From the NCBI GenBank assembly GCA_944324365.1, contig CALUWA010000021.1:1-37367 (forward strand): a stretch of DNA of 37,367 nt, read 5' to 3'. Of the stretch, positions 80 to 393 are shown one piece after another. Position 1 is the first letter of the stretch. Each line of letters starts with the position of its first letter. The position numbers and the translations under genes were made by a program. The notes beneath the pieces are model-generated. The model was not told the DNA's origin and ran no database searches. It saw only the letters and a program-made list of their open reading frames with translations. Source of the DNA: Candidatus Gastranaerophilales bacterium. GTDB taxonomy: Bacteria; Cyanobacteriota; Vampirovibrionia; Gastranaerophilales; Gastranaerophilaceae.

Positions 80-232
80 TTAATACAACTTTGTGATAAA
101 TATTGAACTTATCACCAAACTCTGCTACAATTTTATGTCGAAGAGTTTCAAAGTCGTAACCTTAACGACAAATAAAAAGAGAGGTTAATAGCTCTTGTTT
201 TATTTGTTTATAAGGTTGAGGCGAATCCGTAT

Positions 233-251
233 TTGGGGTTCAGCGCAAGCC
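233..251 (+). repeat. 19-bp imperfect direct repeat, left copy
   Basis: TTGGGGTTCAGCGCAAGCC matches the copy at 1174-1192 at 17 of 19 positions; only the central TT/GG differs. The two copies bracket the toxin-antitoxin pair. Confidence 0.6.
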
Positions 252-267
252 GAGCAGAGGGCGAAGT

Positions 268-306
268 CTTTTTGCTTACGGCATATATGCCGTTCAAAGC
301 AAAAAG
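268..306 (+). repeat. Long hairpin in a GC-richer intergenic element
   Basis: CTTTTTGCTT (268-277) pairs with AAGCAAAAAG (297-306). Inside lies the perfect palindrome CGGCATATATGCCG (279-292). The structure is seen directly. Whether it is a transcribed RNA, a recombination site or a decayed element is not known. Confidence 0.6.
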
Positions 307-339
307 TGTAGACCCGTTTAATGCGAGGCGCAGCAAGAT

Positions 340-359
340 AAGTCCCGTCGTCGACACCA
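340..359 (+). other. tRNA 3'-end-like fragment, possible attachment-site scar
   Basis: The 20 bases read as the end of a tRNA: part of a T-loop (AAGT), a 5-nt T-stem half (CCCGT), a 7-nt acceptor half (CGTCGAC), discriminator A and CCA. The matching upstream half of a tRNA (ACGGG-TTC and the body) is absent, because unrelated bases precede it. Elements that integrate into tRNA genes leave such 3'-end duplications. The match is short, so this is a hypothesis. Confidence 0.35.
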
Positions 360-360
360 T

Positions 361-393
361 AAAAAGGATTACTTTTGTTTAGTAATCCTTTTT
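361..393 (+). terminator. Strong intrinsic terminator
   Basis: A 13-bp perfect stem (AAAAAGGATTACT 361-373 with AGTAATCCTTTTT 381-393) encloses a 7-nt loop and ends in a T tract. Its A and T flanks make it usable in both directions. It isolates the upstream element from the toxin-antitoxin operon. Confidence 0.85.

Follow-up and report, generated by a model that had tools for sequence, protein, structure and literature searches.

The rtT repeats of Escherichia coli, located behind the tyrT gene, reportedly consist of tandem units of ~180 bp that each contain the last ~19 nt of the tRNA, and their RNA is said to be possibly released with the tRNA. REP, ERIC and MITE-type repeats are short, dispersed, palindrome-like, multi-copy and non-coding, with copy numbers that vary between relatives. 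Genomic islands at tRNA attachment sites have direct repeats of the tRNA 3' end, can grow by tandem accretion and bring cargo such as toxin-antitoxin (TA) systems; the stretch from the T-loop to the end of the tRNA is a usual integrase site. Casposons also insert at tRNA 3' ends, with a target duplication of ~14–15 bp.

We have found in Candidatus Gastranaerophilales a family of short modules that shares features with several of these. Like rtT, they are units behind a tRNA that contain the 3' end of that tRNA, also in tandem. However, rtT is said to belong to one tRNA in enterobacteria, while the modules described here are found at many tRNA types and at the tmRNA, have a conserved covarying core and an arm complementary to the host tRNA, and the DNA in which we detected them has no Rfam match. 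In common with REP, ERIC and MITE-type elements they are short dispersed repeats in many copies, with no gene inside and a copy number that varies between relatives, but no terminal inverted repeat or fixed short duplication was noticed, the flanks fit each tRNA and the ends fall within the T-loop and after the discriminator. With the tRNA-site islands they share the direct repeats of the tRNA 3' end, the tandem arrays and the TA cargo, but the units are short, lack an integrase, appear at many tRNAs at once and have a structured core. Unlike casposons, the module contains no genes. None of the known element types tested explains units in which one arm is a copy and the other a complement, fitted to many tRNAs, and no description of such modules was found among the titles and opening lines of abstracts listed in searches of an open-licence library.

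The window analyzed (37,367 nt, the whole stretch of DNA considered here) is an entire contig, C21, of a genome of 2.05 Mb in 36 contigs (G000). An earlier note, made from the letters of this DNA, had pointed to a tRNA 3' end without the rest of the tRNA, preceded by a GC-rich structured block and directly followed by a terminator, and all of this was borne out. The 20-mer AAGTCCCGTCGTCGACACCA, at positions 340–359 of the + strand (as are all the features given below), has the T-loop, the T-arm 3' strand, the acceptor 3' strand and the CCA of a tRNA-Leu-like gene, and ARAGORN called no tRNA gene over the whole 37,367 nt. The stretch 211–360 has a GC content of 50.7% against 36.4% for the window, and just 0.54% of the 150-bp stretches are equally GC-rich. 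The fold of 205–395, which takes in the terminator hairpin, reached -65.8 kcal/mol (z -5.26), and 0 of 200 shuffled sequences were as good. Sequence and fold both indicate the intrinsic terminator hairpin at 361–397. We delimited the module to approximately 211–359. Within it, the left arm (215–228, GTTGAGGCGAATCC) is predicted by the fold to pair with the tRNA-end copy and also with a copy of the tRNA T-arm 5' strand (GGGGTTC, 235–241), and the structured core occupies 242–339. Upstream of the module, by eye, there is a candidate sigma-70-like promoter at 103–131 (TTGAAC, 17 bp, TACAAT), a possible remnant of a tRNA-Leu at 137–170 (start GTCGAAG, similar to that of the tRNA-Leu(CAG) of L012, end ACGACA; no tRNA is called there by ARAGORN) and a terminator-like hairpin at 171–208. 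The search against Rfam 15 gave 0 matches at the curated gathering threshold across the whole window, and nothing convincing in positions 1–1400 at E values up to 10, where we considered mir-142 and the other sub-threshold matches as chance. When 8 further loci were compared with Rfam the matches were to tRNA and 5S rRNA, none over a core.

Comparison at the DNA level detected the block in 29 of 97 genomes, its own included, although in several of these just the terminator or the tRNA end matched, over a short stretch. A covariance search, which the earlier note had proposed for this block, was productive. We built a covariance model (R1) from 14 aligned cores, that of the window (83.6 bits) being one of the 14, and found matches in 199 of 239 genomes of the same family (38 of 41 genera), scoring up to 17 candidates per genome. 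The window genome alone has 16 strong copies and 2 weak ones. In a class-wide sample searched with stricter filters, 47 of 146 genomes matched (E up to 1e-6), all 47 within the family of the window. Numbers varied widely even inside one genus, g6, from none (G017, G201 and G217) to 24 (G346). One exact pattern was found at no fewer than 116 loci in named collections, whose titles corresponded to Candidatus Gastranaerophilales, Melainabacteria, Cyanobacteria or unnamed bacteria, with the exception of three titled "Acinetobacter" and one "Brachyspira" (titles as recorded); a search of the viral_contigs collection with one exact pattern gave 0 stretches.

The core covaries. Over 94 distinct sequences (100 matches from 80 of 116 loci, in an alignment fitted to the model) the covariation score was 0.301 against 0.101, with 0 of 500 shuffles as high, and the starting alignment gave 0.308 against 0.101. 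Changes on both sides were found in 11 of the 15 pairs, and 92.0% of the cells pair. One G-U pair was kept in 90 of the 94, which favours a structure formed on this strand. Among the matches listed, highly similar cores appear at unlike tRNA types, for example 97% over 108 bp between L158 (tRNA-Asp) and L194 (tRNA-Leu), and in many pairs of copies from different types the core is the only region that aligns. A more extensive match, 231 bp at 91%, was found between L108 (tRNA-Ala) and L110 (tmRNA), each right end still fitting its own host. Besides, further core types (such as GGATTTGCGGACGG..., GCTGCATAC... and CATCCTGCCTCGTA...) were seen by eye in the same slot of the module (L030, L037, L048, L052, L054, L057 and L060 of the window genome, and also L079 and L080); the presence of other inserts in the same place in some copies of the window genome indicates that this architecture accommodates more than the window's type of core.

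We have examined the position of 116 copies, 100 from other loci and 16 from the window genome, with respect to tRNA and tmRNA genes. About half of them (63) have such a gene on the same strand ending within 900 bp upstream. The distance to the core was 61–106 bp in 53 of these linked copies and 194–457 bp in ten, seven of which are second units of tandem arrays and three belong to L122. An exact match of 12–43 nt between the flank following the core and the 3' end region of the upstream tRNA was found for 52 of the 63, against means of 3.0–7.6 nt with other tRNAs from the set; for three of these 52 (L107, L142 and L144) the longest match begins at or behind the CCA end. The remaining 11 share just 3–11 nt: L181 is at a cut contig, L130 and the three in L122 have no copy, that of L142 is a second unit, L103, L124, L146 and L154 have diverged, and L117 carries the end of some other tRNA-Leu, as does L013. 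The copied stretch usually begins at a constant place of the T-loop, approximately position 58, and ends anywhere from the discriminator to well into the trailer. Matching ends were found at tRNAs of 13 amino acids (Leu, Asp, Gly, Ser, Thr, Val, Arg, His, Ile, Asn, Lys, Tyr and Ala) and at the tmRNA, whose gene on contig C5 of the window genome (L110, tag AKNNVIEADFSRAYALAA) also has a module with its own 3' end copied. The tRNA-Glu, located at a cut contig, is not counted among them. Several upstream tRNAs (L098, L110, L103 and L175, by eye) have no encoded CCA while the copy has it; a tally by a rule that misplaces the discriminator in some tRNAs gave 30 cases with CCA in neither, 11 in both, 2 in the tRNA only, 1 in the copy only and 7 unplaced. 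For 53 of the 116 copies no tRNA was called within 900 bp, so the linkage is not universal. Even so, 12 of the 52 tRNA-less copies with enough flank end in a tRNA 3' 12-mer, compared with 143 of 20,000 random 25-mers. In the window genome a tRNA or tmRNA was called upstream of 11 of the 16 copies, 12 if a tRNA-Tyr cut by the contig end is counted by eye.

The same picture is seen from the side of the tRNA genes. In 80 loci selected because they contain the core, 35 of the 56 tRNA genes have a 15-nt copy of their own end downstream, and seven have two or more. The usual distance from tRNA to copy was 160–204 bp, while at L124 the single copy of the tRNA end was at +4490. We also counted, independently of the core, the tRNA and tmRNA genes followed within 500 bp by an exact copy of at least 13 of their last 24 nt, taking the expectation from mismatched tails. 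The window genome has 14 such genes out of 38 and G004, of the same genus, 15 out of 41 (0.1 expected in both), and the set of genes with a spare end is not the same in both. The core-free genomes gave 0 of 43 (G017, same family) and 0 of 31 (G081, same class; 31 genes called from 29 regions, the tRNA model giving 39 matches). In the two copy-rich genomes, the spare 3' ends are often found inside a conserved, RNA-shaped module. Modules may also be the reason why several contigs of the window genome end at tRNA genes.

Read from the tRNA, the module consists of the left arm, a small hairpin, the T-arm 5' strand (GGGTTCG), the core, the T-arm 3' strand, the acceptor 3' strand and sometimes CCA. 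In many cases a terminator-like hairpin lies between the tRNA and the left arm, and others were seen by eye within and behind many copies. The left arm, GGGAT-GAG-AACCC or a variant, approximates the reverse complement of the host T-arm. In 52 copies from other loci, the left arm and the right end of the same copy paired at -12.59 kcal/mol on average, against -10.51 with the ends of other copies, and a second pairing gave -6.83 against -5.90 (0 of 2000 permutations in both cases, n = 52). Being host-specific and complementary to the copied T-arm, the left arm would allow the module to fold as a three-way junction, with the core as third arm.

To find sites with and without the unit we screened 259 tRNA loci for pairs of the same type that differed in having a copy, and two tRNA-Gly loci were informative. 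At tRNA-Gly(CCC), L080 (G241) carries a module with a different core type, and L086 (G187) carries no module. The two agree at 364 of 373 positions when the tRNA and the 300 bp before it are compared, and at 60 of 65 aligned columns behind the site (63 nt available). What sets them apart is a single unit that ends in a second, exact AGTCCCGTCTCCCGCT (16 bp, T-loop to discriminator). At tRNA-Gly(GCC), L079 (G204) has an extra unit between the tRNA and a module common to L086 and L080; L079 and L086 share 133 of 134 positions across the tRNA and the 60 bp before it, and 679 of 700 downstream. L080 has a similar unit on the far side of the common module, its module order differing from that of L079. 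These pairs indicate that the whole module is the unit gained or lost; both could also be explained by precise loss between direct repeats. No clean empty site was found in the genus of the window: the orthologous tRNAs of G000, G004 and G017 differ in whether they have modules, but the downstream flanks do not align.

The window copy itself has no host in sight. The earlier note named the absence of any tRNA with this 3' end from the genome as a refutation. No tRNA has it exactly, and the sole other place within 3 mismatches is the 3' end of a tRNA-Leu(GAG), with 3, near the end of contig C34. However, the window is a whole contig, and the host tRNA may have been lost or lie beyond the contig end. 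Behind the terminator we identified a toxin gene of a HigB/Gp49-like pair (506–817, Pfam PF05973) and its antitoxin, an addiction-module antidote (823–1146, PF21716), followed by what by eye seems to be the truncated start of a second module (approximately 1161–1192, AATCCC...TTTTGGGG..CAGCGCAAGCC, cf. 224–257). G049 (L020) has a near-identical pair, preceded by a tRNA-Leu(GAG) and a module with a different core type. The highest similarity to the window copy (91%) is shown by one in G054, which repeats the end of a tRNA-Leu(GAG) located ~4.5 kb upstream; a RhuM/Fic gene is among the genes in between. From the tRNA-Leu(GAG) of these genomes and of C34, we infer that the window copy is probably the distal module of a tRNA-Leu array or the orphan of a lost tRNA. 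Contig C1 of the window genome has a similar TA pair, named from its translation, with a tRNA-Ser module on one side and, on the other, a second core that has the tRNA-Ser end. The proposal that the TA genes of the window are cargo of a mobile element thus receives partial support: in both places the pair is flanked by module pieces.

The best reading of these data, which we consider fairly probable, is that the modules form a non-coding, RNA-shaped family, fitted to the tRNA ends, whose members come and go at tRNA genes. A module arriving behind a tRNA or tmRNA would repeat the gene from the T-loop to at least the discriminator base, leaving the tRNA whole. Its left arm would pair with the second copy of the T-arm and hide the spare end, the core being the third arm of the junction. 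If the region is transcribed, as we suppose, concealing the extra 3' end would prevent misfolding of the real tRNA by read-through transcripts, and this protective role would make the tRNA site a safe haven. The direct repeats would let the arrays grow and shrink, genes such as TA pairs would become trapped between modules, and each of the cases described above would be an insertion and not a precise loss. Related genomes differ in the tRNA genes that have a module, and this may represent a new way for small pieces of DNA to live safely at essential genes.

The main rival, not mutually exclusive with the former, starts from the covariation of the core, which could reflect a function as cellular RNA. 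The module would be an RNA gene associated with tRNAs, comparable to the rtT RNA of E. coli, transcribed past the terminator, freed by the processing of the tRNA and acting as a decoy or mimic of its top half. A covarying core that keeps its G-U pair in nearly all the sequences and pairs well on this strand only, a left arm fitted to the host tRNA, the terminator-like hairpins and the tandem units are all consistent with such a gene; its distribution is harder to reconcile, since it is patchy, absent from all the tRNAs of a genome of the same family (G017) and ranging from none to 24 matches within g6, and there are filled and empty site pairs and copies without tRNA. We consider it possible but doubtful.

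A more elaborate alternative is a tRNA-anchored cassette system, somewhat like a CRISPR array or an integron, in which a putative integrase would insert modules at tRNA and tmRNA genes, duplicating from the T-loop to the discriminator, with both arms rewritten to the local tRNA and arrays that occasionally include TA cargo. New modules would perhaps be added at the end proximal to the tRNA. The extra module of L079 would fit, but the order found in L080 does not in any simple way, and we regard this scheme as unlikely.

The earlier note had suggested that the 20-mer might be the att scar of a mobile element. Part of this stands, as a duplicated tRNA 3' end does mark the edge of a unit gained or lost, but not the single scar of one integrase element. 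More generally, the modules might be attL/attR scars left by tyrosine-integrase elements that use tRNA 3' ends, accumulated in tandem. The direct repeat of the tRNA 3' end expected from attL and attR was found, spanning from the T-loop to the tRNA end, and genes (the TA pairs, RhuM/Fic) lie between some copies. The integrase that should be between the repeats was not found: the usual units, with 160–204 bp from tRNA to copy, are too short, and none of the ORFs listed for L124 and L194, the two cases of kb scale, looked integrase-like by eye (two ORFs of L124 were also scanned for domains). Neither do the copies follow the integrase content. All 17 genomes tested have tyrosine-recombinase/integrase domain matches, with no excess in the ten copy-rich genomes (4, 3, 9, 5, 6, 4, 3, 5, 4 and 2) over the seven core-free ones (4, 9, 9, 10, 5, 4 and 3), and G346 combines 24 core matches with 2 integrase matches. 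Because of the copy number (16 strong cores in the window genome, 11 with a tRNA or tmRNA upstream), the host range (13 amino-acid types plus tmRNA) and these integrase counts, we reject a single att scar, against which the covarying core also speaks; scars of integrase elements in general seem to us quite improbable.

Other enzymes did not provide a better candidate, and none of those considered (tyrosine recombinase, TnpB, Y1 transposase and RVT_1) tracks the copies convincingly. Y1 transposases matched in six of the ten copy-rich genomes and in one of the seven without the core, an unconvincing difference, and a Y1 gene flanked by the repeat, the arrangement that defines RAYT/REP pairs, was not found for the core at 9 of the 10 Y1 matches (nine examined), so we discarded it as mobiliser. 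Reverse transcriptase was discarded as well, RVT_1 being absent in 4 of 10 copy-rich genomes (G000, G004, G054 and G187). That the module is the guide-RNA-like unit of a TnpB/IS605-type element, the core being the scaffold, the tRNA end the guide and GTTCR of the T-loop the adjacent motif, is hardly credible in spite of the scaffold-then-target-copy order and of the GTTCR that precedes the target in the tRNA, for PF07282 is absent from the window genome while 6 of 14 control genomes match, which mostly refutes it there, the copied stretch reaches 43 nt and more (50 nt at tRNA-Glu(CTC)) and the complementary left arm is left unexplained.

Some minor observations concern other repeats. At L120, L132, L137 and L147, in four genomes, the core lies inside what appears to be another RNA gene (TTTTAAGACTT..core..AGTTTTAAGAG); a promoter-like site was seen there by eye, and Rfam gave no match. 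At L141, L145 and L161 it lies inside a hairpin of a ACTCTGCCG-family repeat, L141 and L145 also having 5S rRNA genes, and at L013 the nesting is reversed. The window genome also offers a mirror case, in which the tRNA genes for Thr, Phe, Ile, Leu(TAA), Pro and Leu(GAG) (L028, L034, L046, L048, L053 and L064) are preceded by copies of the tRNA 5' end. By eye and by 11-nt matches, several of these copies include the promoter and are in tandem, with other inserts (CCAGTGGAGTGAAACGGAACG... and ACTCTGCCG...GAGAGG) in or near the D-loop. Exact 13-nt copies of the 5' end were found for 3 of 38 genes in G000, 2 of 41 in G004, 0 of 43 in G017 and 0 of 31 in G081. The ACTCTGCCG...GAGAGG type of repeat, present in these 5' copies, flanks (by eye) RAYT-like Y1 transposase genes of ~177 aa at L338 (G144) and L339 (G187), and such transposases may be its mobiliser.
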